A DNA stretch of 64,000 nucleotides from Rhodothermales bacterium (GTDB lineage Bacteria > Bacteroidota > Rhodothermia > Rhodothermales > Bin80): assembly GCA_951812585.1 (NCBI GenBank), contig OX638318.1, positions 3,104,810-3,168,809 of the forward strand. The letters are read 5' to 3'. The notes under the pieces are model-generated. The model searched no databases. It saw nothing but the letters and a program-made list of their open reading frames with translations, and was not told where the DNA came from. A program made the position numbers and the translations under genes. Positions 1 through 15,900 of this stretch are shown here, in pieces. The first letter of the stretch is position 1, and every line of letters begins with the position of its first letter.

Positions 1-1
1 C

Positions 2-355
2 ATCTTTGCGGGTGCGGCGATGACCGGCACGTTTTGGCTGATCATGATCGGCATCGCGGTGCATGGCATCTGTTACGACTTCTTCTTCGTAACCGGTCAG
101 ATTTACTTGGACAAGAAGACGGCACCCAACATCAGGGGCCAGGTTCAGGGCCTTTTGGTGCTTCTGACGCAAGGCGTTGGCTTTTTTCTGGGCACGATGA
201 TATCCGGCTTCATGGTCAACTCTATTGGCACCAATGCTGAGCTGGAGCTCGGCCAGTGGCGAACATTCTGGCTGGTATTCGCAGGCCTTACCGTGGCTTT
301 CACGCTATTCTTCGCCTTGCTGTTCAAGGATGATGCTGAAGAGGCGCCTGCATGA
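2..355 (+). CDS. MFS permease, nucleoside:H+ symporter-like (5' truncated)
   Basis: The reading frame is open from the first bases of the window, so only the last 117 residues are seen and the true start lies upstream. The visible part has three hydrophobic segments. It contains the HGICYDFFFVTGQIYLDKK stretch typical of the NupG/XapB nucleoside:proton symporter family (Nuc_H_symport), followed by a glycine-rich helix (QGVGFFLGTMISG). The protein ends in a short acidic tail after the last membrane helix, a normal end for this family. Bacteroidota and Planctomycetes often carry such permeases inside carbohydrate loci, and the substrate may be a sugar rather than a nucleoside. The family call is firm; the substrate is inferred only from the neighbourhood. 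Confidence 0.8.
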   Translation: MFAGAAMTGTFWLIMIGIAVHGICYDFFFVTGQIYLDKKTAPNIRGQVQGLLVLLTQGVGFFLGTMISGFMVNSIGTNAELELGQWRTFWLVFAGLTVAFTLFFALLFKDDAEEAPA

Positions 356-1065: not shown

Positions 1066-1579
1066 GCCCCTCGTGGCCGATAGCCAAGCAATCGTTGATA
1101 AGGGCGCCATTGATTGCTCTAACGTCTAATCGACCCATTGCGGATTTTGGGTATGCCCACGAGAATAATATACCACCTATTGCCGCGTTACCGAACCTTG
1201 CCCGGCGAGTGGCACGTTTCGATGCCTTGTTCGGTGTCCAGCAAGGCACCTACCGTAGCCCGCACTTCCGCGTAGTGACTTGCTGTCCGGTGGCGCTGGT
1301 TACTTGCTTACCACAATGGGCTTTGGCAATTGCTGCCGCGAGCACGCAGTACAGCCAAATCTTGCCGCGTTCTACCCCTCCAGGGACCTTCCGGTGCGTA
1401 GTCGGCACCACCGGAGGCACCGGTCTGGAGCCACCAGAGGTTGAGCTTGGACAGACAGGTTACGCAGGGCATGCTGAATCAGTCCCACGAAGCGCTGGGC
1501 TGAGCCCCGCAGCACAATGCAAATGCTGCCTATGATCAGGGCATTACGTATACTCCGCACCGAACCAATTCCTAGTCCT
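1066..1579. other. Divergent intergenic region
   Basis: About 510 bases between two divergently transcribed lipoprotein genes. It must hold both promoters, but I cannot assign -33/-7 or -35/-10 boxes with confidence. No coding frame here resembles a protein family; the frames that are open are arginine- and proline-rich and look like shadows. Confidence 0.4.
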
Positions 1580-2305
1580 ATGCAAACGGTAACGGTATTC
1601 ACTATGGTCCTTGTAGTAGCTTTGGCTGCTTGCCAGCGCACGGAAAACATGGATGCCCCAGCGGCTGAGGACGCACAGCCAGATCAGGAAGCGACCGACA
1701 GATGGATTAACCTGACCGCCGACCATTGGCGCGGATATCGGAGCGAAGTTCGACCCTCTGCATGGATGGCCATGGAGGATGGCACGCTGCACTTCTCCCC
1801 TGAGGGTGAGCGCGGGGATATCGTCACGCGCGACGAGTATGACAACTTCGAGCTGGAGCTGGAGTGGAAGATTTCAGAAGGCGGCAATAGCGGGATCATG
1901 TTTCGCGTCAGTGAAGATCACGATTACCCGTGGCGCACGGGCCCTGAGTTTCAGGTGCTGGACGATGACAGCCACCCGGATGCTCTGGAAGGGGAGGACC
2001 GCCTGGCCGGAGCCAACTACGATATGCATGCACCGGAAGCACGTGTACTCAATCCGGTCGGCGAGTGGAACAGCGTACGGATCGTCGTCAACGGTGCCCA
2101 TGTGGAGCACTGGATGAACGGGGTACAGATTGTGTCGTACGTCCTATGGAGCGACGACTGGAAGGAGCGGATTGCCGGCAGCAAATGGATTGATATGCCG
2201 AATTATGGCATGGAGCAATCCGGGCATATCTGCCTTCAGGACCATGGAGACCCGGTCTGGTATCGCAACATCCGCATTCGTCGGCTTATGCCAGCGGACG
2301 CGTAG
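1580..2305 (+). CDS. DUF1080 (3-keto-disaccharide hydrolase-like) lipoprotein
   Basis: A 241-residue lipoprotein with signal peptide and lipobox ALAAC (Cys18). The ATG at 1580 is chosen because the upstream extension to 1517 adds residues ahead of the signal peptide. The mature protein is one DUF1080/LamG-like jelly-roll domain. Its family pattern is visible: FELELEWKISEGGNSGIMFRV, then the GPEFQVLDD strand, WNSVRIVVNG, VEHWMNG and the final SGHICLQDHGDPVWYRNIRIR. Characterised members cleave 3-keto-glycosides; others are only predicted to bind or hydrolyse sugars. It is likely anchored facing the periplasm or on the cell surface. It converges on the PQQ dehydrogenase gene with a single base between the stop codons. 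A second DUF1080 domain occurs in the large protein at 6459-9971. Confidence 0.88.
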   Translation: MQTVTVFTMVLVVALAACQRTENMDAPAAEDAQPDQEATDRWINLTADHWRGYRSEVRPSAWMAMEDGTLHFSPEGERGDIVTRDEYDNFELELEWKISEGGNSGIMFRVSEDHDYPWRTGPEFQVLDDDSHPDALEGEDRLAGANYDMHAPEARVLNPVGEWNSVRIVVNGAHVEHWMNGVQIVSYVLWSDDWKERIAGSKWIDMPNYGMEQSGHICLQDHGDPVWYRNIRIRRLMPADA

Positions 2306-2306
2306 G

Positions 2307-4445
2307 CTATTGCGGCAAGGCGAACGCCATGTAAGTGTCGCCTGACTTCGTACCCATCTTGCCGCCGCCCGCGGCGATGACGACATACTGACGCCCATAT
2401 ACGGCATACGTTGCCGGCGTAGCGTAGCCGCCCGCAGGCAGCTGCGTTTCCCAGAGCACCGCACCCGTGTGCTTGTCAAACGCACGGAAACGCTCGTCCT
2501 TGGAGGCCGCGATGAAAAGCAATCCCCCTGCGGTAACGACCGGCCCGCCGTAGTTCTCGGTGCCCGTGATTGGAATGCCGCGCGCGGTGAGCGTATCAAA
2601 TTCCCCAAGTGGCACCGACCACACAATCTCGCCTGCACTGAGGTCTATGGCATTCAACGTGCCCCATGGCGGCTTGACAGCCGGGTACCCTTCCTCGTCA
2701 AAGAAGCGGTTGTATCCCGTATGACCATAGGGGCTGCCTGCAAAAGCAGTACTCAGTCGACTGGGCAGGTCGCCTGACGCTGGAGCACCCACAGCTTCGC
2801 CGAACAGGAAGTTCGTAATGCTTTCAACCTCCTGACTGGTCAGAAACCCGAAGGATGGCATAAAGCCCTTGCCACGTGCAATCTGGTCTGCTACTTCGTC
2901 AAAGGAAAAGCGATCTTCGAGTCCCAAAAGGGCCGGGGAGGATTGATCGGTGTTGCCCTCCCGGTTGCGGCCGTGGCAACCCGCGCAATAGCGTGCGTAC
3001 AGCCCGCTGCCGGTAGCAGCGCTATCAGGGTTCAGCGGCACCATGGTCAGTATCCACGGCATCTCGTTGCTGTTGACGTAAAGCATCCCCGTGGTGGGGT
3101 CGTAGCCGGAGCCGCCCCATTCTGCACCACCATCAAAGCCCGGGTAGATCATGGTGCCTTGTGTGCTCGGAGGCACAAACTGCCCGTCAGACCGCGCGGT
3201 GCGAAAGATCTCCGTGACGTACCGCGTCGCGGCTGGCGAGATGTCAGTAATGTCCTGTTCGCCGAAGTACTGCCGCGCAAAGGGCGGCGGGGCAGTGGGA
3301 ATAGGCTGCGTCGGCCATGACTCTTCTCCCAGAAGATCGCTAGGCGGAAAGGGACGCTCTTCAATTGGGAAGAGCGGTTCTCCTGTTTCCCGATCAAACA
3401 CAAACACGTATCCGCTCTTGGTGGCAATGGCTACCGCATCAATCTGCTGCCCCGCTCGCTCGACCGTGACAAGGTTGGGCGGGGAGGGAAGGTCACGATC
3501 CCAGATGTCATGGTGTACGGTCTGATAATGCCAGAGGCGTTCCCCTGTAGCTGCGTCCAGGGCCAACAGACTATTGGCGAAGAGATTCTCCCCTTTTCTG
3601 TTGCCGCCCCAGAAGTCGAATGCAGCCGATCCGGTCGGCAGGTATACTATGCCACGCGATTTATCCAGGGCAAGACCCGTCCATGCATTGGCTCCCCCGA
3701 TATGCTCATAGGCATCTTCCGGCCAGGTGTCATAGCCAAACTCTCCAGGATGCGGAATAGTGTGAAAGATCCATTCCATGGCCCCCGTGCGTACATCGTA
3801 TGCCCGGATGTGGCCGGGTGCGCTTTGCGGCCCCTCCGACACCTGGGATCCCTGGATCAGTAGGTTTTCATAGATGATGCCGGGCGTGCGCGCCCCGACC
3901 GCAAGACCGCTTACATCGCGCCCAAGCCCTTCGCGCAGGCCAACCGATCCCTGATCTCCAAAAGACGTAATGGGTGTCCCGGTTTCCGCGTCAACAGCAA
4001 AGAGTCGCGCGCCTGCGGTGAAAAGGATTCTGGGCCTGTGGCTACGGTCACCCTTCCAGTAGGAGACTCCGCGCAGAATGGACGGACCTTCGGCAACGGC
4101 TCCAGCGGCGAAGGGGTCAAACGTCCAGAGTGGCTCCCCCGTAGCGGCGTTCAGCGCAAAGATTTTGATTCGCGGTGAAACGCCGTAGAGGACATCGTCC
4201 ACGATGATGGGGTTACACTGAATCTGTGTGCGCCCGGTGGTATCGGCATCACCGGCAGCATAGGTCCACGCAACTTCCAGGCTGCCCACATTGTCGCGAT
4301 TGATTTGATCCAGGGAGGAGTAATGGCTGCTGCTGTGGTCCCCCAAGTAAACGGACCACGACTCGTAGGAGTCCGCATCCTGACGGGGCGCGCACGCAGA
4401 CAGCAGCAACAGCGCCAAAGCGCCGCACAACGGTTTGTAGGTCAT
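2307..4445 (-). CDS. PQQ-dependent quinohaemoprotein dehydrogenase (lipoprotein)
   Basis: A 712-residue membrane-anchored quinoprotein that should oxidise an alcohol or aldose in the periplasm. ATG 4445 is chosen; the longer frame begins with TTG and adds nine residues. The lipobox is LLSAC (Cys18). The first ~465 residues are PQQ propeller blades with repeated tryptophan-docking motifs (ALNAATGEPLW, ALDAATGERLW). A cytochrome c domain with one CAGCH haem site (residues 487-491) follows, with a likely axial Met in GFMPSFG near residue 529. The last blades lie after the haem domain and end with GGGKMGTKSGDTYMAFALP. A haem domain set between blades is known in the Planctomycetes/Bacteroidota branch of this family. 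Electrons would pass to the haem and then to a periplasmic carrier, perhaps the cytochrome at 5947. The natural substrate is not evident. Confidence 0.9.
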   Translation of the reverse strand: MTYKPLCGALALLLLSACAPRQDADSYESWSVYLGDHSSSHYSSLDQINRDNVGSLEVAWTYAAGDADTTGRTQIQCNPIIVDDVLYGVSPRIKIFALNAATGEPLWTFDPFAAGAVAEGPSILRGVSYWKGDRSHRPRILFTAGARLFAVDAETGTPITSFGDQGSVGLREGLGRDVSGLAVGARTPGIIYENLLIQGSQVSEGPQSAPGHIRAYDVRTGAMEWIFHTIPHPGEFGYDTWPEDAYEHIGGANAWTGLALDKSRGIVYLPTGSAAFDFWGGNRKGENLFANSLLALDAATGERLWHYQTVHHDIWDRDLPSPPNLVTVERAGQQIDAVAIATKSGYVFVFDRETGEPLFPIEERPFPPSDLLGEESWPTQPIPTAPPPFARQYFGEQDITDISPAATRYVTEIFRTARSDGQFVPPSTQGTMIYPGFDGGAEWGGSGYDPTTGMLYVNSNEMPWILTMVPLNPDSAATGSGLYARYCAGCHGRNREGNTDQSSPALLGLEDRFSFDEVADQIARGKGFMPSFGFLTSQEVESITNFLFGEAVGAPASGDLPSRLSTAFAGSPYGHTGYNRFFDEEGYPAVKPPWGTLNAIDLSAGEIVWSVPLGEFDTLTARGIPITGTENYGGPVVTAGGLLFIAASKDERFRAFDKHTGAVLWETQLPAGGYATPATYAVYGRQYVVIAAGGGKMGTKSGDTYMAFALPQ

Positions 4446-4921
4446 ACGAATAAGCCATTTCACTGAAGGCAAGATACCAACGCCATGCTAATGCGCACGG
4501 CCGGGGCCCGGTAAATGGACACGGCTGCTGCGAGCCCATACCATGCCGTATCATGCCGCGAATCACGAAGTTGCGCCAGTGCGTTCACCCCTGCTCTCGT
4601 TGGCTAGGGTAACGGTTTAGCAAATGGAAACAACTAAGGCGCACGTTAGACCATTCCGCGCTTAATGCAGACATAGTACTGAAACGGAGTTCTTACCTAC
4701 CGATTGATGCCGTCGGCGAGGCGCCTTCAAGCTGCTGCGAGGCACTGCATCTCGATGGATTTCCGTGCCGAAGCTAGGCATTTGCGTTTCCAAACCACCG
4801 CTTGCTGCCGCCGACTAAATACTCCAGAAGGCGAAAATCAGCATTTGCGTTCACAAACCGCGAACCAATGCCTTCAAACCCTCGAGTTTATGGCGATTCA
4901 AAGCCCTGGTGATTTATCCGG
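4446..4921. other. Intergenic region upstream of the PQQ dehydrogenase
   Basis: This 476-base stretch separates the end of the SMP-30 gene from the start of the PQQ dehydrogenase gene. It is the only place for a dedicated promoter of the latter. It contains a spaced direct repeat (annotated separately) and no credible coding frame. Confidence 0.5.
4778..4859. repeat. Two-copy 19-bp direct repeat, possible regulator sites
   Basis: GCATTTGCGTTTCCAAACC at 4778-4796 recurs as GCATTTGCGTTCACAAACC at 4841-4859 (17 of 19 identical, start-to-start spacing 63 bases, about six helical turns). The first copy contains the short palindrome GTTTCCAAAC. The repeats lie about 330-415 bases upstream of the PQQ dehydrogenase start, so binding sites for a regulator are possible, but the function is inferred only from position. 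Confidence 0.4.
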
Positions 4922-5950
4922 TTAAACCCGGTCACCCAACGTGCTCAGCCGGATGCTGAGGAGGTACATGTCGGCCGTAATGAAGAGCGTTTCGCCATCG
5001 CCGCCGAAGGCGCAATTACTCGTGGCCTGACCGGTATTCAGTGTGCCAAGGTGCGTACCGTCTGATGCAAAGACGAGCACGCCGCCTGGGCCAGTGGCGA
5101 ACAGGTTGCCGTGCATATCAACCTTCAACCCGTCGGGGAGGCCGGGGCGGCCTTCGGCTACCAGATGCGAAGCGTCAAAGAAGACACGCCGATTGTGCAG
5201 CAGCCCGTGGTCATCCACATCGTAAACCACCCATATGGGATTTTGTGGATCGGAATTTGCCACATACAACAGGCTCTCGTCGGGCGAAAAAGCTATCCCG
5301 TTCGGGCGCGTAAGCGCGCTGTCCAATAGCGTTACCGTACCGTCCAAGTCCAATCGGTACACACCCTGGAAGTCCAGCTCCTTGGCTGGGTCCTCCATCC
5401 GATGTTCCAGCCCGTACGGAGGATCGGTAAAGTACAAGCGGCCACTGGAGTGGTAAACGAGATCGTTCGGACTATTGAACCGCTTACCATCGTAGCGATC
5501 AGCCAACGTGCGGTACGCTGGCACGGCTGAATCAAGCGCCGCATCTAACCGCGCAATGCGCCGATCACCATGCTGTGCAAGTACAAGCTGTCCTTCGTCA
5601 TCCAGCGCAAGCCCGTTGGATCCTACTTCACCGCCACGAGATGCGGCACCGGTGTAACCGGAGGGCTGCAGATACAACATAAGCCCTTCCGTAGCATGCC
5701 ACCGGTAGATAGCGTTCTCAGGAATATCCGAAAAAAGCAAGGCATCACCGATCCAGACCGGGCCCTCAGACCAGTCGAATCCATCAGCGAGCACCTCAAG
5801 CGCAGCACCATCCGGCACCAGTGCGTCAATCCTGGGGTCCAGGCGCTCAACCTTACCAACCGTGTCATACGGGCCGGATGCTGGGCCGCACATCAGCATC
5901 AGCATGGGCGCCACCAGAATCACTAGGAGTGCAATAAGGAGTCGTCTCAT
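4922..5950 (-). CDS. SMP-30/gluconolactonase-family lactonase
   Basis: A 342-residue exported six-bladed propeller enzyme that should open sugar lactones to aldonic acids using a divalent metal. The N-terminus is a hydrophobic signal that ends in LMLMC, compatible with a lipoprotein. Family marks in order are FDWSEGPVW (metal-binding Glu), NSPNDLVYHSSGRLYFTDPPYG (shown in part), TRPNGIAFSPDE, and GLPDGLKVDMHGNLFATG with the catalytic-loop Asp. The gene starts inside the end of the cytochrome gene (ATGA overlap), so the two are translationally coupled and probably made together. A lactonase beside PQQ-type dehydrogenases fits removal of the lactone product of aldose oxidation. The family is firm; the exact lactone is unknown. 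Confidence 0.88.
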   Translation of the reverse strand: MRRLLIALLVILVAPMLMLMCGPASGPYDTVGKVERLDPRIDALVPDGAALEVLADGFDWSEGPVWIGDALLFSDIPENAIYRWHATEGLMLYLQPSGYTGAASRGGEVGSNGLALDDEGQLVLAQHGDRRIARLDAALDSAVPAYRTLADRYDGKRFNSPNDLVYHSSGRLYFTDPPYGLEHRMEDPAKELDFQGVYRLDLDGTVTLLDSALTRPNGIAFSPDESLLYVANSDPQNPIWVVYDVDDHGLLHNRRVFFDASHLVAEGRPGLPDGLKVDMHGNLFATGPGGVLVFASDGTHLGTLNTGQATSNCAFGGDGETLFITADMYLLSIRLSTLGDRV

Positions 5951-6453
5951 TGGCGCAGAGTAGAGTCGGGCGTGCTGAAAAGGGTGCTAAGCGAGCCAGG
6001 AATGCCTTGATTGGCTCGCTCCATCAACTCCTCAGCAGTCCAAGGCGTGGCGCGGTCAGCCGTTGCCTTGCGCACCAGGGCCACTTGCTGCGCCGTCACA
6101 GCGGACGCATCATTGCCCCAAGCTTCACGTATGTACGTCAACAGCTCGGCTACCTCGTCGTCGCTCAGGAAAGCCTTCCATGGCGGCATGGCGCCAGAAT
6201 ACACCACGCCGTTGACCTTTACCTCACCCATCATGCCGTCCAAAACCAGGCGGATGAGTCGTCCCCGGTCACCGCGCACCCAGTCGGTTTCCACAAGGGG
6301 AGGGAAGACCCCGGCAATGCCCATGCCATCAACCTGGTGGCACGACATGCAACGGGACAGGTAGATCGCTTCGCCGTCGCTCCCGGGGGCCGCCATGAAA
6401 GCGCCCGAAGCAAGTGCTGCCGCGAGTAATCCCGCAACCAGTTTTCCGCGCAT
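5947..6453 (-). CDS. Periplasmic mono-haem cytochrome c
   Basis: A 168-residue exported cytochrome. The signal peptide spans residues 1-22, then a class I cytochrome fold with one haem site CMSCH (SRCMSCHQVDG) and a probable axial Met in YSGAMPPWKAFLSDDEV. This is the standard arrangement of small cytochromes that serve sugar or alcohol dehydrogenases. After the fold there is an extra ~55-residue charged helical tail (TAQQVALVRKATADR...) with no known match. The gene sits five bases downstream of the large DUF1080-ThuA-dehydrogenase gene and overlaps the lactonase gene by four bases. It is the obvious electron acceptor for the encoded dehydrogenases. Confidence 0.88.
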   Translation of the reverse strand: MRGKLVAGLLAAALASGAFMAAPGSDGEAIYLSRCMSCHQVDGMGIAGVFPPLVETDWVRGDRGRLIRLVLDGMMGEVKVNGVVYSGAMPPWKAFLSDDEVAELLTYIREAWGNDASAVTAQQVALVRKATADRATPWTAEELMERANQGIPGSLSTLFSTPDSTLRQ

Positions 6454-6458
6454 GAGGC

Positions 6459-9400
6459 CTAGTGGTCGGGTGAGTCGATAGCAGGAATCTCCACCATTCT
6501 GGTGATGATTCGAACCTCGCCGCGCGCATCGGTTACAGTCAACTGGGCGTGGTAGGTTCCAGATCCATCGTAGGTATGCTCGGCTACGCGACTGCTGCTG
6601 CTCGCGCCATCGCCGAAGTCCCAGTGAAATGATAACAGATCGAGATCAGGATCATAGATGTCCATGCCATCAAATCGATAACGCCATCCCTCTTCATGTA
6701 TCACCTTAGCATCACCCAAGGGTGGACGATTATGCTCGATCCATCGATAGCGCGTGACCTGTGCATCGGGCCCCGCATCCCAGAACCCATCGAATTCAGC
6801 CAGATAGATGCTGCCGTCAGGGCCTTGCTCCATGGAAATGGGCGAAGTCGCCCGGAGCCGATCAAACGTCTTAATGTTGACCAGGCGCGTAGCGGGCATG
6901 GAGATCTGGGGCACGTCAAACCGCATATCACTTTCGCGATCATTCTCAAAGGTGCCTTCTACCAACTCACCGTACTTGATCCAGCGGCGTGCCCAGTCAA
7001 ACACAAACAACTTGTTCTGCATCAGCGCAGGAAAGCCGCCTTCGCCCTCGTGGCGATAGATCGGTCCCACCGTGGCCGAGCGACCGCCACCTTCATACGT
7101 GTATTCCCACATCGGCGGTACATAGCCGGATATCATGTCCGGGGTCCATTCGTTGTAAAAGAGCTTGCCGAGCGTTCGCGGCCACCCAAAATTTTCGCCT
7201 CCCTGGTGCGACACGTTGTATTCGTCGTAATCGTAGGAGGCATCAGGCCCCACGACGCCAATGTACAGAGCGCCGGATTCCGGGTCTACCTTGAACCGAT
7301 ACGGATTGCGAAGGCCGTAAGCATAGATCTCCCAGCGCACACCTGGTTGCCCAAAGAACGGGTTGTCGTGCGGAATTGAGCCATCCCGGTTGATGCGCAG
7401 GATCTTGCCCCGCAGGTCCTGTAGGTTTTGCGCAGAGCGCTCCGAGTCAGCCTGCCGCGCCCAGTGATAGCCCTTGAGGCCGTGGCGCTCCTGGAAGGCC
7501 TCAAGTTCGTCGTCACGGACCTCCCACTCAGGACGCACTTCCGACATGCCTGTATCCCCGGTTGAGATGAACAACGTTGAATCCGTCCCCCACTCCAGAT
7601 CGCCCCCCTGGTGACAGCATGTAGGCTCGGTAGGAACGCGAAGCAGCACCTCTTCCGTATCCTCAAGTATCGCCACACCATTGAAGACGTAACGCGACAG
7701 CTTGTTGATAAAGGTGTGCGGCTCAGCGTAGTACAGGTAGACATACGGGCTCCCGTCGTAGAACTCCGGATCAACTTCTATGCCGTACAAGCCGTGTTCA
7801 ATATTGGTGGGGTCTGTCGTACGCAGGTGGGCAATGAAGAGCATGTCGCCCGTTGCTGCATCGTAGCGATGCACCCTCCCGCGCAGCTCCGCAATCCATA
7901 CGTTTCCGCGCTCATCGACAGCAATATCATCAGGCCACACTTCCTTTGCGATCACTTCCTTGACACGACGCCCGCCGAATGAGGCGTCCGTACGCCCTGC
8001 GGCCAGTCGCAGCCCCTCGACAATATGCGCCTGAAATCCTGGCGTCTTCCAGACATCCGCGAAGTGGCCTAGCTTGGTAACGAAGACGCGGCCACCCTGG
8101 TGTCCACGAATCCACGCGATGGGATAGTCGTTGCGCTCATCGCCGGCCACATCACCGGTGAGCTCCACACTCTCCATGCCGAGCGACATCAATACGCGGC
8201 TTGTCCAGCGTGGGTTTTCATCCAGCACGTAGATCTCGTCCCTGATCCAGAAGTCTTCTCCCCAATGGCGGGTGGCCGGATTGTCGGCGTCCTCTATGGC
8301 GATGCGCACGCTCTGCGTCCACGGATGCGAGTCGAACAGCCCGCCACCGACCATCTCGCGGTACTCGGGCCAGTTATAGAAGGCGTCGAGACCCGCATGT
8401 GCCACGGCAATCCCTTTGCCATCTCGCAAAAAGCTCATAATGGCCTCTTGCTGCTCGGGTGCAATTGTGGGCGTGCCCTCTTCCACATCCGCTGCTGCCA
8501 TCACGCCCGTAAAGTCAAGGGTGCCGCCCAAAGCCGATAGCGTGCCCGTCATTTCCGTTCCTCCCCTTTGGGCTTCGGCCCGGATGATGCCGAAGTTGGC
8601 ACCATCAAACGAAAACCGAATGGAATCCTCCGTCTGCACCAGGTCGACAAGCGGCAGCGCGTTGCCTCCAAGCACAATCGTGCTCGCGGTATCGGCAAGG
8701 GATAATGCGGCATCCATCGGGCCTTGCGGCGAGTTGATGGTAAGTGTCCATTCTTCCGGCGGCGGGGCGGTGCGCGTGCCCGTCAGCGCCATCGGCATAT
8801 TCATCACCGTGATGGTACCCGAGATATCATCCCCGCGCATGTGGAGAGCTGCATCCAACCTGCCGGCTCCTTCAATCTCCCAGTGAAACGTCAGCGAATC
8901 GCCCCGCAGGAATACCTCCTCCAGCGCCGCTAAATCTGGAAACAGCCGAAATGCGATGACACCAGTCAGACTGTCCGGATGCCCCGAAAGGGCCAGCGTG
9001 CCATCGAACTCATTGTCCGGAAGCGATAGCATGACATCGTAAGTCGCGTACGATCCTTCAAGGGTCAACACCTCCGGCACAGGCGCACCCTCCGGGCGCT
9101 CGGCGCGCAGCGTACTGTTGGCAAAGAAGAGCACATCGTACTGCTGCAGATTTGTGTGATTGAGCTGCGTAAGGTCTTCGGTCGTGTCGACTCGCAGCTC
9201 CGTAGTCTCAGACAACGCAGTCATTACTTCCTTTTGCGCCGCGATCGCAGCGCCATGGCGAAACGCATGGGTGGTCGTCACCATAAGGACTCGGATCTCG
9301 TCCGCATCGCGAGCCTGTGGGGCCAGCTGTGCCAGACTCATGGAGGCGGCATCCTCCAACGCGCGAATTCGCACATTGCGAAAGGCTACCCGTGAACTGT

Positions 9401-9971
9401 CGTCGTGGTTCTGCAGTCCGATGTGACCTTCCAGGGAGCGATTGCCTACAAAGTCATTGATGAGCGCCCCATTGAGCCATATCTGGTATCGCTGACCGGT
9501 AACCTTGATGCGGTACGTGTTCCACTCGTCCGTGGCATTGGCCGTGACCCTGAAGGACGCGGAGATGGCATAGATGCTGCCAGTAACATGGTCAGGGTCG
9601 CGACTGTTGTCAATCTGGATTTCATAGCCCTCCCGTACGGCAACCCATGGATCATCCGTTGCCGGAAAGCGCACGAACACACCGGCATTCGCACTGTGTT
9701 TGTTGACCTTCCAGTCCAGTTCCAGCTCGAAGTTGCGATAGGACTCCGCAGCATAGTAGAGGAGGCCCATGCCACCGTGGCTTACCATCGAGCCGTCGTC
9801 CTGCAAGGTGAAGCCGCCCGGCCCGGCCTGCGTCCATCCCTCCAGGCTGGAGCCATCAAAGAGCGGCTGCCACCCGTCCTGCCCCCAAGCGGAGGTCGTG
9901 CACACCAGAGTGGCCAGCGCCACCCACAAAACATATCGTAGTTCGCTCATTGCAGGTCGTATTCCGGTCAT
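6459..9971 (-). CDS. Multidomain DUF1080-ThuA-sorbosone dehydrogenase-PKD protein
   Basis: A 1,170-residue secreted protein. ATG 9971 overlaps the stop of the upstream gene (ATGA); ATG 9950 would begin closer to the signal peptide (MSELRYVLW...TTSAWG) and is the alternative. Numbered from 9971, residues ~33-205 are a DUF1080 jelly roll (FELELDWKVN...NAGVFVRF, WNTYRIKVTGQRYQIWLNG). Residues ~226-290 are the first half of a ThuA domain (RVLMVTTTHAFRH). Residues ~298-495 are a two-fold repeated beta domain, and ~500-660 the second ThuA half (VAHAGLDAFYNWPEY...GGGLFDSHPW). Residues ~668-1080 are a GSDH/L-sorbosone dehydrogenase-like PQQ propeller (PDDIAVDERGNVWIAE, NPYRFKVDPESGALY), and ~1090-1165 a PKD domain (FHWDFGDG). 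No haem site is present, so electrons must go to a separate cytochrome. Such fusions are common in Bacteroidota and Planctomycetes, but the insertion that splits ThuA is unusual. Confidence 0.85.
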   Translation of the reverse strand: MTGIRPAMSELRYVLWVALATLVCTTSAWGQDGWQPLFDGSSLEGWTQAGPGGFTLQDDGSMVSHGGMGLLYYAAESYRNFELELDWKVNKHSANAGVFVRFPATDDPWVAVREGYEIQIDNSRDPDHVTGSIYAISASFRVTANATDEWNTYRIKVTGQRYQIWLNGALINDFVGNRSLEGHIGLQNHDDSSRVAFRNVRIRALEDAASMSLAQLAPQARDADEIRVLMVTTTHAFRHGAAIAAQKEVMTALSETTELRVDTTEDLTQLNHTNLQQYDVLFFANSTLRAERPEGAPVPEVLTLEGSYATYDVMLSLPDNEFDGTLALSGHPDSLTGVIAFRLFPDLAALEEVFLRGDSLTFHWEIEGAGRLDAALHMRGDDISGTITVMNMPMALTGTRTAPPPEEWTLTINSPQGPMDAALSLADTASTIVLGGNALPLVDLVQTEDSIRFSFDGANFGIIRAEAQRGGTEMTGTLSALGGTLDFTGVMAAADVEEGTPTIAPEQQEAIMSFLRDGKGIAVAHAGLDAFYNWPEYREMVGGGLFDSHPWTQSVRIAIEDADNPATRHWGEDFWIRDEIYVLDENPRWTSRVLMSLGMESVELTGDVAGDERNDYPIAWIRGHQGGRVFVTKLGHFADVWKTPGFQAHIVEGLRLAAGRTDASFGGRRVKEVIAKEVWPDDIAVDERGNVWIAELRGRVHRYDAATGDMLFIAHLRTTDPTNIEHGLYGIEVDPEFYDGSPYVYLYYAEPHTFINKLSRYVFNGVAILEDTEEVLLRVPTEPTCCHQGGDLEWGTDSTLFISTGDTGMSEVRPEWEVRDDELEAFQERHGLKGYHWARQADSERSAQNLQDLRGKILRINRDGSIPHDNPFFGQPGVRWEIYAYGLRNPYRFKVDPESGALYIGVVGPDASYDYDEYNVSHQGGENFGWPRTLGKLFYNEWTPDMISGYVPPMWEYTYEGGGRSATVGPIYRHEGEGGFPALMQNKLFVFDWARRWIKYGELVEGTFENDRESDMRFDVPQISMPATRLVNIKTFDRLRATSPISMEQGPDGSIYLAEFDGFWDAGPDAQVTRYRWIEHNRPPLGDAKVIHEEGWRYRFDGMDIYDPDLDLLSFHWDFGDGASSSSRVAEHTYDGSGTYHAQLTVTDARGEVRIITRMVEIPAIDSPDH

Positions 9972-10765
9972 TGCAAGAGGCCAGCGTATCCGGCGTGTGC
10001 CAAGACAGCATCCAGTCCGCCTTCCATCATGAGCGGACCAATTGCGCCATCGCCATTGGCATCCACACCGGTCCGGCATCGGTTGAGCAGGGCGGTCATG
10101 GCGGCGGCATGCTGCCGAGCCAGCGCTGCATCGCCGTCGTAATTCGTCTTGAGTATGTTGAGCGCTTGCGCGAACGCCTCATGGATCCAGCCGGTATCAG
10201 CGCTGGAATTCCAGAATTCGCCGGGCGCGGTCCACATATACGTAAGATCTACGCGCGGCTGGTTTTCGGCTTTGGTTACGCCATCATCGAGCCGCATCCA
10301 GCCTATTACGTTATTCAGCGAATGGATTACATGCACCAGATGCACACGTGTCGAATCGACATCGTATTGCGCCTGCAGCTGATCGCGCAGGTGTCGGGCC
10401 CGGCCTATGATGCCCAGCTGCGCGACATCCTGAATGCGAGGGAGCCAGCCGCCGTGACGCTTAACGTGGTCCTCGTCAAACTCCTGGCCTGAAGTCTGCC
10501 AGCGCGTTTTCCAGCCGTGCATGGCGGCAGCGCCGGTGGAGCCATCGGCCAGCCCTGAAGGCTGTCCCCAGATGACAGTGAACACGCCATCCGCATGGCG
10601 CTTGGCCTGTTCCACATCAGTGGCCGATTCCGCAGCTACGCTGTGCGTATGCGCTTCCTGAAGCAACCGGTCCAGCTCCATGAGCAGCGCGTGCATTTCG
10701 CCTTGAGCAAAGGCCGGCCCACCTATCAAAAACGGGAATAGCAGCAGTACCCGAAAGGGATTCAT
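9968..10765 (-). CDS. Secreted protein of unknown function
   Basis: A 265-residue protein with a clear signal peptide (MNPFRVLLLFPFLIGGPAFAQ). ATG 10765 is preferred because the frame from 10792 only adds nine polar residues before it. The mature part is mostly predicted helix and rich in histidines and tryptophans, with GWKTRWQTSGQEFDEDHVK, a segment HLRDQLQAQYDVDSTRV, and WTAPGEFWNSSADTGWIHEA. Near the end DANGDGAIG resembles an EF-hand-like calcium loop. I do not recognise the family. It is embedded in the sugar-oxidation run, 74 bases after the creatininase gene and overlapping the large oxidoreductase gene by four bases, so a role in the same periplasmic process is inferred. Confidence 0.7.
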   Translation of the reverse strand: MNPFRVLLLFPFLIGGPAFAQGEMHALLMELDRLLQEAHTHSVAAESATDVEQAKRHADGVFTVIWGQPSGLADGSTGAAAMHGWKTRWQTSGQEFDEDHVKRHGGWLPRIQDVAQLGIIGRARHLRDQLQAQYDVDSTRVHLVHVIHSLNNVIGWMRLDDGVTKAENQPRVDLTYMWTAPGEFWNSSADTGWIHEAFAQALNILKTNYDGDAALARQHAAAMTALLNRCRTGVDANGDGAIGPLMMEGGLDAVLAHAGYAGLLQ

Positions 10766-10839
10766 GAATTCGATTGGATTGCTTCCCTGCACCGGTAATA
10801 GATGGGCCAGGAATGAGTGGGGATTGATACTTCCAGAAC

Positions 10840-11610
10840 TTAGGCCATGTAAAGCTCGTCGAGGTCTTGTGCAGCCAGCGCCGCCAAAAACTCAGCAATT
10901 CTTCGCGTAAGCACGCCAAGGAACCGCTTCCCTTTTCCCGAGGTGGATCGTGAAGGATCGCCGACGCCCGTATCGTCGGTGGCTTCCAGCCAGCGGCGTT
11001 CGGCCCAGACCCATCCTTCGCGTATACCTGTCAACGTAGAAGCACGCGCGTTGCCACTTCCAGCTTCGGCCAAGGGGAGGACCCAATCCGATGCCAAGAA
11101 CTGCATGTTGCTGGTTTCCATCTCGCCACCATGGTCCCCGGGCTCATCGAAATAGTCGGTGCCGCGCAGTACCTTGTACCAGTTGATTTCGCAGATGAAC
11201 ATGTCGCGGTGCCGGGCACCGATTTCGCGAATCATCTGCTTGAAGCTGTTGCCGCCGTGCCCGTTCAGCACGACCAGCTTTTGGATGTGCTGGAGTGACA
11301 GTACCTGCACGATATCGCCCAGTACGGCGGCCTGCGTGCTGGGCATCATGTTGATGTCCAACTTCACATCCATCTGCCCCGTATTCACGCCGTAAGGAAT
11401 TGTTGGAAGCACGACGACCAGCGCGCCTTGACCCCAGGCTATGCGGGCACTTTCGGCGGCGATGTATTCTACTTGGATGTTGTCAGTGGCGTAGGGAAGA
11501 TGATAATTGTGGGCCTCTGTTGCACCCCAAGGTAGAATCGCGACTTCATAGGGCGTGGCTCGGACAGCTTTCCAGTTTGTTTCCGCCAGGATATACGGGC
11601 GCGCAGGCAT
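10840..11610 (-). CDS. Creatininase-family amidohydrolase
   Basis: A 256-residue cytoplasmic protein of the creatininase/creatinine amidohydrolase fold, a binuclear metal hydrolase. Expected ligands are visible: WGATEAHNYHLPYATD near residues 28-43, the NGHGGN loop near residue 117, and DHGGEMETSNM near residue 160. There is no signal peptide. Members act on creatinine, cyclic amides, formamides or lactam-like rings; which applies here cannot be told. The gene lies 12 bases after the upstream lipoprotein gene and in the same direction as the sugar-oxidation genes. Creatininase-like proteins recur in sugar catabolic clusters with ThuA and DUF1080 proteins, where their job is unsettled. Confidence 0.85.
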   Translation of the reverse strand: MPARPYILAETNWKAVRATPYEVAILPWGATEAHNYHLPYATDNIQVEYIAAESARIAWGQGALVVVLPTIPYGVNTGQMDVKLDINMMPSTQAAVLGDIVQVLSLQHIQKLVVLNGHGGNSFKQMIREIGARHRDMFICEINWYKVLRGTDYFDEPGDHGGEMETSNMQFLASDWVLPLAEAGSGNARASTLTGIREGWVWAERRWLEATDDTGVGDPSRSTSGKGKRFLGVLTRRIAEFLAALAAQDLDELYMA

Positions 11611-11622
11611 TTCCGGCCGATC

Positions 11623-12093
11623 CTACTGCTGAACGAGAAGCACGAGATCGTACTCGTGGTCTATGATCTGGATGGGTCCGTCAAAGAAGGGGATGATGAA
11701 GCGGCCCTTGCGATCCAGCGAGAGCTCTCGCGTGGAGTATGTCAGGTAGCCGCCCTGGAAGGATCCGCTAAAGGAATAGTCCAGCATCCGGCGGCTGCCG
11801 GAAATGTTGCGCTCGATTTCGTAGTGCCGCACCTTCTCGAAATCGGCACCCACGTGCAGAGATACATTGGTGATTTCAAAAGATCGCCGCACTGTCACGG
11901 TCGCCGGCGTCGTGCTCTGCTGTACCCCCTCAACAAAAATCCAAGCCCGTTTTACCATAGGCGGCAGCCTTGCGTCAGAAGTATCCTTCGGAGCACGCGA
12001 TTCGATGGTGACGCCCGCCGGCGTGCTAACGCATCCCATCTGCACCACCTGCAGCATACTCCCCAGCACTACAGCGGCCGCAATGGTTCTCAT
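11623..12093 (-). CDS. Lipoprotein of unknown function, first gene of the run
   Basis: A 156-residue lipoprotein. ATG 12093 gives a proper signal peptide with lipobox VVQMGC (Cys21); the frame extends to 12228, but that part is polar and cysteine-rich and looks non-coding. The mature protein is a single beta-rich domain with alternating strands (RAWIFVEGVQQSTTPATVTV, RHYEIERNISG, YSFSGSFQGG, GRFIIPFFDGP) and ends in VLLVQQ. I know no named family. It is the promoter-proximal gene of a minus-strand run that continues through the creatininase to the lactonase with gaps of 12, 74, -4, 5 and -4 bases. Confidence 0.72.
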   Translation of the reverse strand: MRTIAAAVVLGSMLQVVQMGCVSTPAGVTIESRAPKDTSDARLPPMVKRAWIFVEGVQQSTTPATVTVRRSFEITNVSLHVGADFEKVRHYEIERNISGSRRMLDYSFSGSFQGGYLTYSTRELSLDRKGRFIIPFFDGPIQIIDHEYDLVLLVQQ

Positions 12094-12569
12094 GATCATG
12101 TATCGGTTGGGCCGCTCAGCGTTGCTGCGCGATTGATTCCTGATTAAGGGCTGGAAGCATGCTGCTGCCATGCTGCTTTCATGCGGTTCCTGCTTGCAAA
12201 ATACTGCACGCGCCGCACAACTGCACATGCGGATAAGGCTCAGGCCTGACTACCTGGCTTTTGTGCAGCGCCTTGCAGCAAGCGCGGAACCGGAGAACAA
12301 CGAACGGTCACCTTGCCATTCTCCCACGCCCACAGCCCGGTGATACTGCCACGAATGCCGCGGCAGCGCCGCGACTCGCCGCCCTTCGGGCTGTTCCAGA
12401 CTTCGTTACGCGTCCGCGCATGGCCCGTTGTGCCTTATGCAAGATCATCCGATTTACAAGCACTTAGAGTGGGCGCTTTTGTTATATTGCATTTAGGCGT
12501 CTTAGGCGTTCTACGTGCACGGTCCATTGTGCACGTCATGGCATGTAGAACAAAACGCTCCGGTTCGCT
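12094..12569. other. Divergent control region between lacI and the sugar-oxidation run
   Basis: A 476-base region between the lacI-type gene and the first lipoprotein gene. It should carry both promoters. The lacI-proximal end has nested inverted repeats, annotated separately. Near 12156-12175 CATGCTGCTGCCATGCTGCT is a short tandem echo. No coding frame here resembles a protein. Confidence 0.5.
12507..12551. promoter_or_regulatory. Nested inverted repeats before lacI, candidate operator
   Basis: ACGTGCAC at 12512-12519 and GTGCACGT at 12528-12535 form a perfect 8-bp inverted repeat around eight bases. An outer pair, GTTCTAC at 12507-12513 and GTAGAAC at 12545-12551, encloses it. The right end is 18 bases from the lacI start. 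LacI-type proteins usually bind near-perfect palindromes of about 14-20 bp, so an autoregulatory operator is plausible; a leader-RNA hairpin is the alternative. Confidence 0.5.
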
Positions 12570-13595
12570 ATGCCTGACAGGCCCAAGATCGACGACATTG
12601 CGAAGGCCGCGTTTGTTTCCCGTTCCGTGGTTTCTCGCGTGCTCAACAACAGGCCCAACGTCAGTCCGCTGGCGCGAGCGAGAGTCAAGGAGGTCATCGA
12701 GCGCCTGGGATATGCGCCGAGTTCCGCAGCTCGGAGCCTTGCTACCAACAAGACGTACGAGATCTCGATCCTTGCCCCAAGGCAAAAGGATCATGTTTTC
12801 GCGAACGCATTCTGGTCCCTGATCTTCCTGGGGCTTTCTGAGGGATGCATTCGCCGCGGCTATTTCGCCACGTTAAACGTCATTGCCAATGAGCTGGATG
12901 AAAAGCTCAAGCACCGGATCCTTCGAGGGCACAGCATGGATGGCTATGTCTTAATCGGACGGGAAGTTGCCGACGAAGCGTTTGATGTCTTGCAAAACAC
13001 GGGCAAGCCGATGATTGTCCTCGGGCATGATGTCCACCATAAGCAGCTGCCTTCTGTAGATGTAGATAACGTGGGCGGGGCATACAAGGCGGTGCAGTAC
13101 CTCTTCAAGTTGGGACACCAGCGCATTGGCCTGGTCGCAGGGCGCGTCCAGACACAGGAGGCACAAGACCGCGTCGAGGGGTACGCCAAGGCGCATTATG
13201 AGCTGGGTGTAGCGCTGGATGAAGCGCTGAGCTTCCCAGGGGAATTTTCGCACCGGAGTGGATACAGGTCCATGCAGCGGCTGCTTCTGCATAGGCCCAC
13301 CGCGGTGTTTTGCACCTCCGATGCCCAGGCTATGGGAGCACTATTGGCCATTCATGAAGCGGGATTGCGTGTGCCCAGGGACATCTCGGTAATCGGTTAT
13401 GATGGCCTGCCCTCCGCGCGCTTTACGTATCCGCCGCTAACCACTATGCAGCAGCCGATCTATAGCATGGGTCGGCAGACTTCGGACACGCTCATTGACC
13501 TGATCGAAGACAAGCATAGCGGGCCGCAACGCATCATGCTGCGGTCCACGCTCATTGAACGGGAATCGTGCGGGCCCCCACCACTGGCGGCCTGA
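12570..13595 (+). CDS. LacI/GalR-family transcriptional regulator
   Basis: A 341-residue regulator of usual LacI length. Residues 5-25 are the N-terminal helix-turn-helix (KIDDIAKAAFVSRSVVSRVL), followed by the hinge helix (SSAARSLATNKT) and a periplasmic-binding-protein-like sensor domain. That domain shows the expected LAPRQKDHVFAN, VILGHDVHHK-type and GHQRIGLVAGR segments, a VFCTSDAQAMGAL strand and ISVIGYDGLP near residue 275. It most likely responds to a sugar or sugar derivative. It is divergent from the sugar-oxidation run and is followed by an MFS sugar porter, so these are the likely targets, although a target is not shown by the sequence alone. Confidence 0.93.
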   Translation: MPDRPKIDDIAKAAFVSRSVVSRVLNNRPNVSPLARARVKEVIERLGYAPSSAARSLATNKTYEISILAPRQKDHVFANAFWSLIFLGLSEGCIRRGYFATLNVIANELDEKLKHRILRGHSMDGYVLIGREVADEAFDVLQNTGKPMIVLGHDVHHKQLPSVDVDNVGGAYKAVQYLFKLGHQRIGLVAGRVQTQEAQDRVEGYAKAHYELGVALDEALSFPGEFSHRSGYRSMQRLLLHRPTAVFCTSDAQAMGALLAIHEAGLRVPRDISVIGYDGLPSARFTYPPLTTMQQPIYSMGRQTSDTLIDLIEDKHSGPQRIMLRSTLIERESCGPPPLAA

Positions 13596-13878
13596 TTCCA
13601 CGCCGGGCATCCCCACTGACCTGATGGCAGCAGGCGGAGTCTGCTGTGACTCTGGGCCGAGCCAAAGTAGTGCTCCGTTTACCATGCGGTTGGGCAAGCA
13701 GGCCCGCACACTTCGCAGCTGGTGAGCAACAGACCCTCAGGCAATCGCGCAGCGCAGGCGTAACCCGTGCCGCTTCTCCGCTGGGCATGCCAGGTGACAC
13801 TCAGCCATACGCCAAGGCACGGCCTGTGGCTTGCCTTTAGTCTGCGCGTTGTTCTCCTTCCACAGGGGCTCGATCTTA

Positions 13879-14274: not shown

Positions 14275-14538
14275 GCTACGAGGCTGTATACACCCAAAAT
14301 GGCGTGTTATCGCATCGGGGCTGCAAGTACTTTTGCGATCATTGCAGTTGCACGATCACCGATATCTTTGCCTTGGGCGCGGCAGCTGTAATGAGCGGTG
14401 CTGGAGACCATTTTTCAAAAGCAGTTCTTGTCCTGGAACGAGGAATAGCAGCAACCTTGGCACGCCCTGCAAACGCTTGAAGGCAGTCGACAGGCTCCGC
14501 GCAAAGCCTATCTTTGAGGACAGCTATCCACTTTCTAT

Positions 14539-15900
14539 ATGACGCGCACGCTGTTTGCAGCCTCGTTTGTTGCTGCCCTTGGAGGACTCCTCTTCGGATT
14601 CGACACCGCAGTGATATCGGGTGCCGAAGGGACGCTGCAGGTACTGTTTGACGCCGATTACGCGCAGATGGCCGATATCGTTGCCAACCGCACATTCTGG
14701 CACGGCTTTCTGGTCGCCAGTGCGCTGATCGGGACGATTATCGGGGCACTGGCATTTGCCAAGCCGGCTGACCGGTACGGCCGACGCCAAGTGCTAGTCT
14801 GGCTTGGCCTCCTGTACCTGATCAGTGCCCTTGGGAGCGCGCTGGCGTGGGGCGCATGGCCCTTCATCGGTTTTCGATTCATCGGCGGGCTTGCCGTCGG
14901 TGGTGCTTCGGTGGTGGCGCCGATGTACGTTGCCGAAATCTCCCCGGCCCACTACCGTGGGCGGCTTGTTGCAATGGTGCAGCTCAACATTGTCCTCGGC
15001 ATCCTGTTGGCGTACCTGTCCAACTACATAATTAGTGGCATGAGCCTGGGCCCGCAGGAGTGGCGATGGATGTTCGGCGTGGAAGCCGTGCCCGCGCTCG
15101 CGTTCACCGCGCTGCTGTTCACCAACCCGCGCAGTCCGCGCTGGCTTGTCGCGAATGATCGCGCAGAGGAGGCTGCCCGCGTTCTGATAGCCGTAGGCCT
15201 GAATGCCAGGAATATCAAGTCCGAGATCACCGCGATATCGCGGTCCCTGATCGCCGCGAAGAAGAGCCTGGGCGCACGCTTTTTTCAGCGCAAATACAGC
15301 AAGCCGATCATGCTCGCGATAGCCATCGCCGCTTTCAATCAGCTCTCCGGCATCAATGCACTGATCTATTACACCCGGCGCATCTTCGAAATGGCGGGCG
15401 CTGAAGGCACCTCGGCGCTATGGCAGTCGGTCATCATCGGCGGCACCAACCTGGCGATGACCATCCTGGCAATGGCGGTGATTGACCATTTTGGGCGACG
15501 AAAGCTCATGCTGACGGGATCCATCGGGTACATTATTTCGCTGAGTGCTACGGCCGTTGCCTTCTATGCGGGCGTTTCCGGCCCGCTGATCTTGGTCAGC
15601 CTGGTCATCTTCATCGCGTCGCATGCCTTTGGACAAGGGGCCGTGATCTGGGTCTTCATTGGGGAAATATTCCCTAACGCCCTGCGCGCCAGAGGGCAGG
15701 CCCTAGGCAGCTTCGTGCATTGGCTTATGGCGGCCGTCATCTCACTTACCTTCCCCATGATCGCCGAAGTTTCCGGTGCGCATATCTTCGCGTTCTATGC
15801 GCTCTGCATGGTAGGGCAGCTGATCTGGGTCCTTAAGGTCATGCCTGAAACCAAGGGCGTGCCACTGGAAGAAATAGAACAAAAACTGGGCATCATCTAA
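14539..15900 (+). CDS. MFS sugar porter (XylE/SP family)
   Basis: A 453-residue twelve-helix sugar:proton symporter. The family signature is complete: GGLLFGFDTAVISGAE in helix 1, PADRYGRR in the loop between helices 2 and 3, the PRSPRWL segment after helix 6, QLSGINALIYYTR in helix 7, DHFGRRKL in the matching C-terminal loop and PETKGVPLEE after helix 12. Length is normal. It lies downstream of the LacI regulator in the same direction, with only a decayed T9SS gene between. This suggests uptake of the sugar sensed by the regulator, though the exact hexose or pentose cannot be read from sequence. Confidence 0.93.
   Translation: MTRTLFAASFVAALGGLLFGFDTAVISGAEGTLQVLFDADYAQMADIVANRTFWHGFLVASALIGTIIGALAFAKPADRYGRRQVLVWLGLLYLISALGSALAWGAWPFIGFRFIGGLAVGGASVVAPMYVAEISPAHYRGRLVAMVQLNIVLGILLAYLSNYIISGMSLGPQEWRWMFGVEAVPALAFTALLFTNPRSPRWLVANDRAEEAARVLIAVGLNARNIKSEITAISRSLIAAKKSLGARFFQRKYSKPIMLAIAIAAFNQLSGINALIYYTRRIFEMAGAEGTSALWQSVIIGGTNLAMTILAMAVIDHFGRRKLMLTGSIGYIISLSATAVAFYAGVSGPLILVSLVIFIASHAFGQGAVIWVFIGEIFPNALRARGQALGSFVHWLMAAVISLTFPMIAEVSGAHIFAFYALCMVGQLIWVLKVMPETKGVPLEEIEQKLGII

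Follow-up and report, generated by a model that had tools for sequence, protein, structure and literature searches.

A conserved Rhodothermales locus with a possible role in periplasmic oxidative use of a glycoside with scavenged PQQ

Introduction

Which compound, and which of its carbons, might a bacterium oxidise with a locus that combines two PQQ-type propeller enzymes, DUF1080 and ThuA domains, a cytochrome c and a lactonase? The DUF1080 and ThuA families have links to 3-keto sugar systems. For both propeller types, the relatives that have been characterised act mostly on C1 or on simple alcohols. Work on routes that oxidise a glycoside before cleaving it is recent and expanding; the entry steps considered here depend on NAD or flavin. 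A PQQ-dependent glycoside 3-dehydrogenase, if true, would be a third entry into the 3-keto pathway besides the NAD (Gfo/Idh) and flavin (GMC) types. With a PQQ/cytochrome entry of this kind, glycan use would feed straight into respiration and would rely on PQQ from other microbes. Here, we established the gene content of the locus, its conservation, an obligate pairing of two proteins, key active-site residues, and genes that fit PQQ import and not synthesis.

Materials and methods

The DNA is from a Rhodothermales bacterium (GCA_951812585.1, OX638318.1:3,104,810-3,168,809, forward strand). This whole stretch of 64,000 nt is called the window, and the locus was examined at window positions 2307-13595. 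Families were called with Pfam profiles against the curated cut-offs, with NCBIfam/TIGR models and by PDB alignments. Relatives were taken from the same GTDB order and family.

Results

Gene content and conservation

The features are listed in Table 1. An earlier note, made from the letters alone, had named the gene families largely correctly: PQQ propellers, ThuA, cytochrome c, SMP-30, creatininase family and LacI were confirmed by Pfam, and the two proteins it had left without a family (9968-10765 and 11623-12228) match no Pfam family. The two DUF1080 domains it had counted both exist, but only one lies within 2307-13595. Both stop/start overlaps are real ATGA overlaps, one linking the gene of the 265-aa protein to the fusion gene (9971-9968), the other linking the cytochrome c gene to the SMP-30 gene (5950-5947). 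The gene set is mostly exported, in line with the periplasmic locus that had been proposed, but no signal peptide is visible in the creatininase homologue, which is therefore probably cytoplasmic.

Table 1 Features of the locus and its surroundings (window positions)
Feature	Position	Strand	Remarks
MFS transporter, C-terminal end (Nuc_H_symport, PF03825)	1..355	+	gene start upstream of window; L074:11942-13162, 315.5 bits
Stand-alone DUF1080 lipoprotein	1517..2305	+	convergent with PQQ dehydrogenase gene; 177 bits vs cut-off 26.8
mGDH-like 8-bladed PQQ dehydrogenase lipoprotein, cytochrome c inserted in propeller	2307..4445/4472	-	Pfam, 664 bits
Non-coding gap, ~450 bp	4446..4921	.	HAD_2 gene at same place in 11 relatives
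SMP-30/gluconolactonase-like protein (SGL), N-terminal signal	4922..5950	-	Pfam PF08450
Small cytochrome c (CMSCH)	5947..6453	-	Pfam
Exported fusion DUF1080-ThuA-GSDH-PKD	6459..9971	-	Pfam
Fusion, PKD domain	6462..6716	-	
Fusion, GSDH domain	6717..7991	-	
Fusion, ThuA domain (two stretches)	9087..9296 + 7992..8468	-	
Fusion, beta-rich insert in ThuA	8472..9086	-	~200 aa
Fusion, DUF1080 domain	9357..9881	-	
Exported 265-aa protein	9968..10765	-	no Pfam family
Creatininase-superfamily metal hydrolase, NGHGGN type	10840..11610	-	PF02633, 170.7 bits
201-aa lipoprotein	11623..12099/12228	-	no Pfam family; lipobox Cys codon starts at 12033
LacI-family regulator, divergent	12570..13595	+	Pfam
Sugar porter (PF00083, MFS)	14539..15900	+	Pfam
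Sodium/solute symporter (SSS)	15959..17491	+	profile match

Of the 16 genomes in the same GTDB family, 14 keep the gene order, with proteins about 50-80% identical, which is more than chance. Conserved order in relatives was the check that the earlier note had asked for, and its sugar-oxidation gene set holds up: the set is conserved, PQQ-type propellers adjoin cytochrome c, and most copies have DUF1080 either fused to ThuA-GSDH or next to it.

The core pair

The ThuA-GSDH subfamily and the 265-aa protein occur in the same 24 of 114 genomes of the order. Their genes are adjacent in all 25 copies, one genome (G028) having two copies of each. The irreducible core is thus this pair of obligate partners, usually accompanied by a DUF1080 and a cytochrome c. 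G008 lacks the creatininase, 265-aa and fusion genes as a group but retains the series cytochrome c, SMP-30, HAD and PQQ dehydrogenase. Conversely, families f7, f12 and f15 have the core but not this lactonase.

The small cytochrome c lies beside nearly all core copies and is conserved beyond the family (G029 has a cupredoxin instead). It is the probable electron acceptor.

DUF1080 was not found in the fetched neighbourhood of 4 of the 25 core copies, and is hence not always part of the route. These are the four genomes of the f15 group, which retain ThuA-GSDH, the 265-aa protein and the cytochrome c. This counts against the specific route of oxidation, cleavage and lactone opening that had been proposed.

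The 265-aa protein gave no Pfam or PDB sequence match. Its family has conserved W/R/D/H residues and a DxNxDG loop. AlphaFold with four sequences modelled a helical bundle (mean pLDDT 70), with two conserved loops below 50; a Foldseek search with the model returned nothing under E 0.001. VIA-align Z values of up to 13.6 would fit any helical bundle, and a fold assignment was rejected.

The fusion protein

A start at 9971 is more likely than the mechanical start at 10079 because the ATGA overlap lies there and the additional N-terminal residues find no support in relatives. The DUF1080 domain scores 151 bits (cut-off 26.8, PF06439, the 3-keto-disaccharide hydrolase family) and the six-bladed GSDH domain 116.3 bits (cut-off 25, PF07995). 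The catalytic His (CCHQGG) and the PQQ-site Arg (GLRNP) of soluble glucose dehydrogenase (sGDH) align and are invariant in all 21 aligned GSDH domains. An unvarying Cys-Cys pair stands directly before the catalytic His of the ThuA-linked GSDH; the aligned sGDH/Asd relatives lack it. The PDB alignments stop before the last blades and short of the C-terminal PQQ ligands; a conserved FDWARRW lies in that region. The insert that splits ThuA gave a beta-rich model of low confidence, with only weak lectin/FABP-like matches (TM <0.2 for the best-ranked rows), and these were set aside. A search of mainly open-access literature yielded no paper joining DUF1080 with ThuA; for ThuA with sorbosone dehydrogenase, nothing relevant turned up.

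The mGDH-like dehydrogenase and the lactonase

The PQQ dehydrogenase has the lipobox LSAC and carries a cytochrome c insertion spanning aa 484-556. The mGDH-type motif HHDxWDxDLP is present and largely invariant in relatives. Against TIGR03074, the protein scores 506 bits, below the cut-off of 832.65, with the best stretch from profile position 149; against the acido-empty-quinoprotein model TIGR04528, it scores 232 bits, below the cut-off of 650.

The SMP-30 protein reaches 156.6 bits (cut-off 26.3) and aligns to 3e5z and 3dr2. The metal-site motifs SEGPVW, NSPND, PNGIAFS and PDGLKVD are present and conserved in 18 sequences. For this half of the locus, the presence of a lactonase next to an mGDH-like enzyme suggests C1 chemistry. 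The gap between the two genes means that a shared transcript is not required.

PQQ supply

The PqqC profile found no match in the family and none over the cut-off in 296 genomes of the phylum. PqqE was rejected as a sign of PQQ synthesis, as there were only weak radical-SAM matches (154 bits, cut-off 381). A TonB transporter (L100) matches E. coli PqqU at all five residues that bind PQQ (Y/F99, K274, R304, R365 and R536). Thus, PQQ is probably scavenged and not made. The combination that marks a PQQ scavenger, namely the PqqU residues Y/F99, R304 and R365 together with no PQQ biosynthesis, was found here. This matches a report of Bacteroidota that carry PqqU but no PQQ biosynthesis, Rhodothermia included (PMC12124388).

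Discussion

The core pair, the PqqU-type transporter and the GSDH features make it plausible that glycosides are oxidised and cleaved by a PQQ/cytochrome route. PQQ would enter through the PqqU-type transporter. The fusion, with its 265-aa partner, would oxidise a glycoside, its DUF1080 domain would cut the oxidised sugar, and the electrons would exit by way of the small cytochrome c. Next, the mGDH-like enzyme, which carries a cytochrome c of its own, would turn a released aldose into a lactone, which SMP-30 would open. After import, the acid or keto sugar would be processed further in the cytoplasm, where the creatininase-type hydrolase may take part. We infer each catalytic step, the order of the steps, the oxidised carbon and the substrate, and we put the probability of periplasmic oxidative use of a glycoside or oligosaccharide with scavenged PQQ, most likely in this order, at about one half.

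A narrower version is speculative. The ThuA-linked GSDH may be a PQQ-dependent glycoside 3-dehydrogenase, marked by Cys-Cys, that feeds the DUF1080 of the same chain and needs the previously undescribed exported helical partner and a one-electron acceptor. C1 oxidation, or supply of a 3-keto sugar by Gfo/Idh or GMC enzymes elsewhere, fits as well as C3 oxidation.

Purely C1 chemistry, with both PQQ enzymes making lactones from aldoses or reducing oligosaccharides, SMP-30 opening them, and DUF1080 as an ordinary glycan hydrolase or binding domain, is a minority prospect that deserves attention. C1 oxidation is a known activity of mGDH-like and GSDH enzymes, and the locus includes a lactonase. 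In addition, the DUF1080 protein THTE_1561 is an endo-xanthanase/lichenase according to a report cited in a passage of PMC9007349. However, the 3-keto ties of DUF1080 and ThuA speak against it, as do the core copies that lack this lactonase and another ThuA-GSDH in the window's genome, which lies in a cluster with Gfo/Idh, DUF1080 and a TIM-barrel isomerase (G000:C1:2142000-2151400). Gfo/Idh is the usual type of 3-dehydrogenase. A 3-keto glycoside could instead come from that cluster or from a GMC enzyme of 565 aa encoded near 262 kb, and the fusion would then only cleave it and oxidise the products. We consider such a supply (Gfo/Idh or LacA-like GMC) unlikely, since these genes are far from the locus, neither the locus nor its syntenic copies showed a recognisable flavin or NAD dehydrogenase, and the fusion of DUF1080 with GSDH argues for coupled steps in one protein. 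As further candidate 3-dehydrogenases in the genome, the Gfo/Idh and GMC enzymes count against both the specific route proposed earlier and the order favoured here.

The gap and the arrangement in G008 hint at two modules that can be separated, not a single pathway. The core (265-aa protein, cytochrome c, and ThuA-GSDH whether or not DUF1080 is present) would then act on one compound, and SMP-30, HAD and PQQ dehydrogenase, with the convergent DUF1080 and the MFS transporter, on another. The core standing alone in three families agrees with this, but the joint order of both parts is retained across six genera of the family and the cytochrome c/SMP-30 overlap in the window bridges them; we regard independent modules as a minority prospect too. 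A polyol or cyclitol as the substrate is very improbable. PQQ enzymes also oxidise polyols, and the creatininase homologue has a weak NCBIfam match to the 3-dehydro-scyllo-inosose hydrolase IolN, but its score is 23 against a cut-off of 245, no inositol-pathway genes were recognised in the locus, and its best PDB match is 3lub, an uncharacterised putative creatinine amidohydrolase.

The favoured glycoside route has a precedent in Caulobacter, where the lactose 3-dehydrogenase LacABC is accompanied by the periplasmic DUF1080 protein CCNA_01705 (PMC9007349). In both cases, an exported DUF1080 goes with a membrane or periplasmic sugar dehydrogenase, and the oxidised disaccharide is proposed to be cleaved in the periplasm. 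In contrast to LacABC, the locus has PQQ-type propellers, one of them fused to DUF1080 and ThuA, adds SMP-30 and the 265-aa family, and has no GMC flavoprotein (GMC genes of this genome lie at 261, 2803 and 2818 kb, none at the locus at 3105-3125 kb). Bacteroides BT2157, given as a 3-ketotrehalose hydrolase in a passage of PMC9007349, is likewise a DUF1080-domain protein that cleaves a 3-keto disaccharide. Unlike that system, the locus has no Gfo/Idh enzyme, and electrons would go to cytochrome c. The direct oxidative glucose pathway, with membrane glucose dehydrogenase (TIGR03074) and gluconolactonase, shares the HHDxWDxDLP propeller near a lactonase, whereas the enzyme here lacks the N-terminal membrane domain and has a lipoprotein signal and a cytochrome c inside the propeller. 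The sGDH/Asd enzymes (PF07995; 1c9u, 2g8s, 2ism) share the six-bladed family and the aligned His and Arg, and differ from the GSDH by its Cys-Cys, its fusion to ThuA, DUF1080 and PKD, and its obligate partner. This pairing gives a precise target for co-expression and assay, consisting of a single fusion protein and its one partner.

Regulator and accessory genes

The divergent LacI control that had been proposed can hold for the window's genus only, as the family comparison found the LacI gene beside the locus there and not outside the genus. A palindrome scan of the intergenic regions for a LacI operator gave nothing convincing.

The creatininase homologue is a superfamily member only, with 41.5 bits against TIGR04448 (cut-off 235), and has NGHGGN where 1q3k has NGHYEN in the alignment. 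The 201-aa lipoprotein was downgraded as a pathway component: two relatives (G008 and G009) keep it without the core, so it is probably chromosomal context.

The stand-alone DUF1080 gene is conserved in relatives. Its likely start is at 1580, with the lipobox LAAC (by eye), and the Nuc_H_symport MFS gene lies beside it in L043, L045, L047 and L051 as well. The sugar porter and SSS neighbours are conserved even where the core is lost. A KDPG aldolase was uninformative as a clue to the locus, being found in nearly the whole family. A scan of genome contigs named three relatives only, all of them Rhodothermales MAGs.

Gene content and setting

The window (G000:C1:3104810-3168809) lies in a genome consisting of a single contig of 3.2 Mb, the nearest named relatives of which are Rhodothermales metagenome genomes (NCBI placement Rhodothermota). 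Comparisons were made inside the taxonomic groups of the genome tool, with families labelled f1 to f15. Signal peptides and lipoboxes were called by eye on the translations.

Read leftwards from 12228, against the plus strand, the genes follow as lipoprotein, creatininase-superfamily hydrolase, 265-aa exported protein, exported DUF1080-ThuA-GSDH-PKD fusion, cytochrome c, SMP-30 protein and, after a 450-bp gap, a PQQ dehydrogenase whose propeller contains an internal cytochrome c domain. A LacI regulator and two transporters are divergent from this row. The earlier observation is mostly confirmed, its interpretation partly supported, and the locus varies on known sugar-oxidation loci. Every gene class named in the earlier note was found, and the stop/start overlaps it reported are ATGA junctions at 9971-9968 and 5950-5947. 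Both DUF1080 domains exist, the second just beyond the interval given for them. By the by-eye call, the creatininase homologue, the regulator and the transporters are the only proteins of the locus that are not exported.

Coordinates of features in the window and at compared loci
Feature	Position (strand)	Remark
Second DUF1080 gene	1517-2305	converges on PQQ dehydrogenase gene
PQQ dehydrogenase	2307-4445 (-)	8-bladed, mGDH-like
SMP-30 protein	4922-5950 (-)	
Cytochrome c	5947-6453 (-)	
DUF1080-ThuA-GSDH-PKD fusion	6459-9971 (-)	
Cys-Cys-His of GSDH	7611-7619	fusion aa 785-787
ThuA insert	8472-9086	~200 aa, beta-rich
265-aa protein	9968-10765 (-)	
Creatininase homologue	10840-11610 (-)	
201-aa lipoprotein	11623-12228 (-)	
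LacI regulator	12570-13595 (+)	
MFS sugar porter	14539-15900 (+)	
SSS symporter	15959-17491 (+)	
PgpH-like HD-domain protein	17511-19853	named from translation
PqqU-like TonB-dependent transporter (L100)	G000:C1:79000-83500	all five PQQ-contact residues
Gfo/Idh cluster (L092)	G000:C1:2142000-2154000	
Tandem secreted proteins (L074)	8070-11905	upstream of window
Genes beside core in G029 (L060)	4153-8082	
Replacement genes in G008 (L087)	9089-14769	G008:C4:18000-36000

Conservation of gene order

A lack of conserved gene order was the ground for refutation named in the earlier note, and the locus withstands that test: within the limits set by contig ends, 14 of the 16 GTDB-family genomes keep the order lipoprotein-creatininase-265-aa-fusion-cytochrome c-SMP-30-PQQ dehydrogenase, facing DUF1080 and the MFS transporter. 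A HAD_2 gene occupies the site of the 450-bp gap in 11 relatives. LacI control does not hold as a general feature: the regulator is at the locus in G000 (the window's genome) and G014 only, hence the regulatory claim extends over a single genus only.

The HD-domain protein forms a conserved chromosomal border of the locus. In L074, a tandem pair of secreted proteins of ~640 aa each, of which the first carries LVIVD repeats, lies ahead of the MFS transporter, and L051 has a similar protein at the same position.

Core and separable modules

The strongest new element is an obligate ThuA-GSDH/265-aa pair, not the route proposed earlier. The 265-aa protein occurs in 24/114 genomes of the order, exactly those with the close ThuA-GSDH subfamily (> about 50% identity); no carrier outside the order was found in a sample of 395 phylum genomes. 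Its gene adjoins ThuA-GSDH, and comes first, in 25/25 copies, and the one genome with two copies has both genes doubled. Across 15 diverse members, the family has about 40 invariant positions (many Trp, Arg and Asp, one His), with a DxNxDG loop followed by EGG. No match was found in Pfam or among PDB sequences. The predicted model is a helical bundle with the conserved loops at low confidence. Candidate roles are electron-transfer partner, cofactor or Ca2+ binding, or second catalytic subunit.

DUF1080 is fused in the window's GTDB family and parts of f7 and f12, whereas G028 copy b and G029 encode it in a gene of its own next to the core. It was not found beside the core in f15, and the segment was not recognised in G015. 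Nearly every complete neighbourhood has cytochrome c next. In G029 its place is taken by a plastocyanin/azurin-type domain, which suggests that a copper protein replaces it; a DUF1080-PA14-DUF6797 protein and the propeller carrying that domain adjoin the core. G008 has lost the creatininase, 265-aa and fusion genes together and kept the lipoprotein and cytochrome c-SMP-30-HAD-PQQ dehydrogenase, and G009 shows only lipoprotein and transporters at the locus position. From this pattern, the core is the 265-aa protein, ThuA-GSDH and an electron acceptor, usually with DUF1080; SMP-30/HAD/PQQ dehydrogenase forms another block that can be separated from it; and chromosomal context seems the better description of the lipoprotein and transporters. 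Genes resembling glycosyltransferase and exopolysaccharide-export genes (by translation) fill the vacated site in G008.

Active sites

GSDH: The domain aligns to soluble PQQ glucose dehydrogenase (sGDH) and relatives, and the catalytic His and PQQ-site Arg are invariant in 21/21 aligned proteins. A vicinal Cys-Cys directly precedes this His in all 21, and also in the more distant ThuA-GSDH proteins where the motif was located (L092, L034, L037, L038), but in none of the sGDH or sGDH/Asd structures aligned. Quinoproteins of the 8-bladed type have a vicinal disulfide that it resembles, a likeness that is possibly convergent.

ThuA: The insert interrupting this domain, which matched no Pfam family, is present in f1, f7 and f12; in f15 and G028 copy b it is shortened or missing.

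Other enzymes: The 8-bladed enzyme retains the mGDH-type HHDxWDxDLP motif, although it falls below the mGDH family cut-off and lacks the membrane domain. SMP-30 retains its metal-site motifs. The creatininase homologue has NGHGGN, whereas creatininase has NGHYEN.

Proposed route

LacABC with a periplasmic DUF1080 hydrolase is the precedent (PMC9007349). Within the minimal core, GSDH alone was recognised as a redox domain, and cytochrome c or a cupredoxin adjoins it; hence any keto-glycoside that the core itself produces would have to come from oxidation by GSDH. Against this stand a GMC enzyme elsewhere in the genome and the L092 cluster, where Gfo/Idh lies beside ThuA-GSDH together with FG-GAP-DUF1080 and a TIM-barrel isomerase. 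As a 3-keto sugar set this cluster is the more conventional of the two, and in it 3-oxidation would more naturally fall to Gfo/Idh, with GSDH doing something else. At the window's locus, the mGDH-like enzyme and SMP-30 are most simply read as C1 oxidation followed by lactone opening. A two-part oxidative route is the best account, in which the C3 step is an unproven proposal.

PQQ supply

A model search gave no PqqC match in the window's GTDB family, with the control of that search also silent. We therefore added a scan of 296 phylum genomes, which gave a weak PqqC signal in 23, none above cut-off and none in the window's family. PqqE gave only weak matches below cut-off. E. coli PqqU, in contrast, has homologues in the family, and those read full-length, including that of G000, keep 5/5 PQQ-contacting residues as named in PMC12124388, three of which are the PqqU signature. 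The same study reports PqqU in Rhodothermia and PqqU-carrying Bacteroidota without PQQ biosynthesis genes. Taken together, these sequence data make the use of scavenged PQQ credible.
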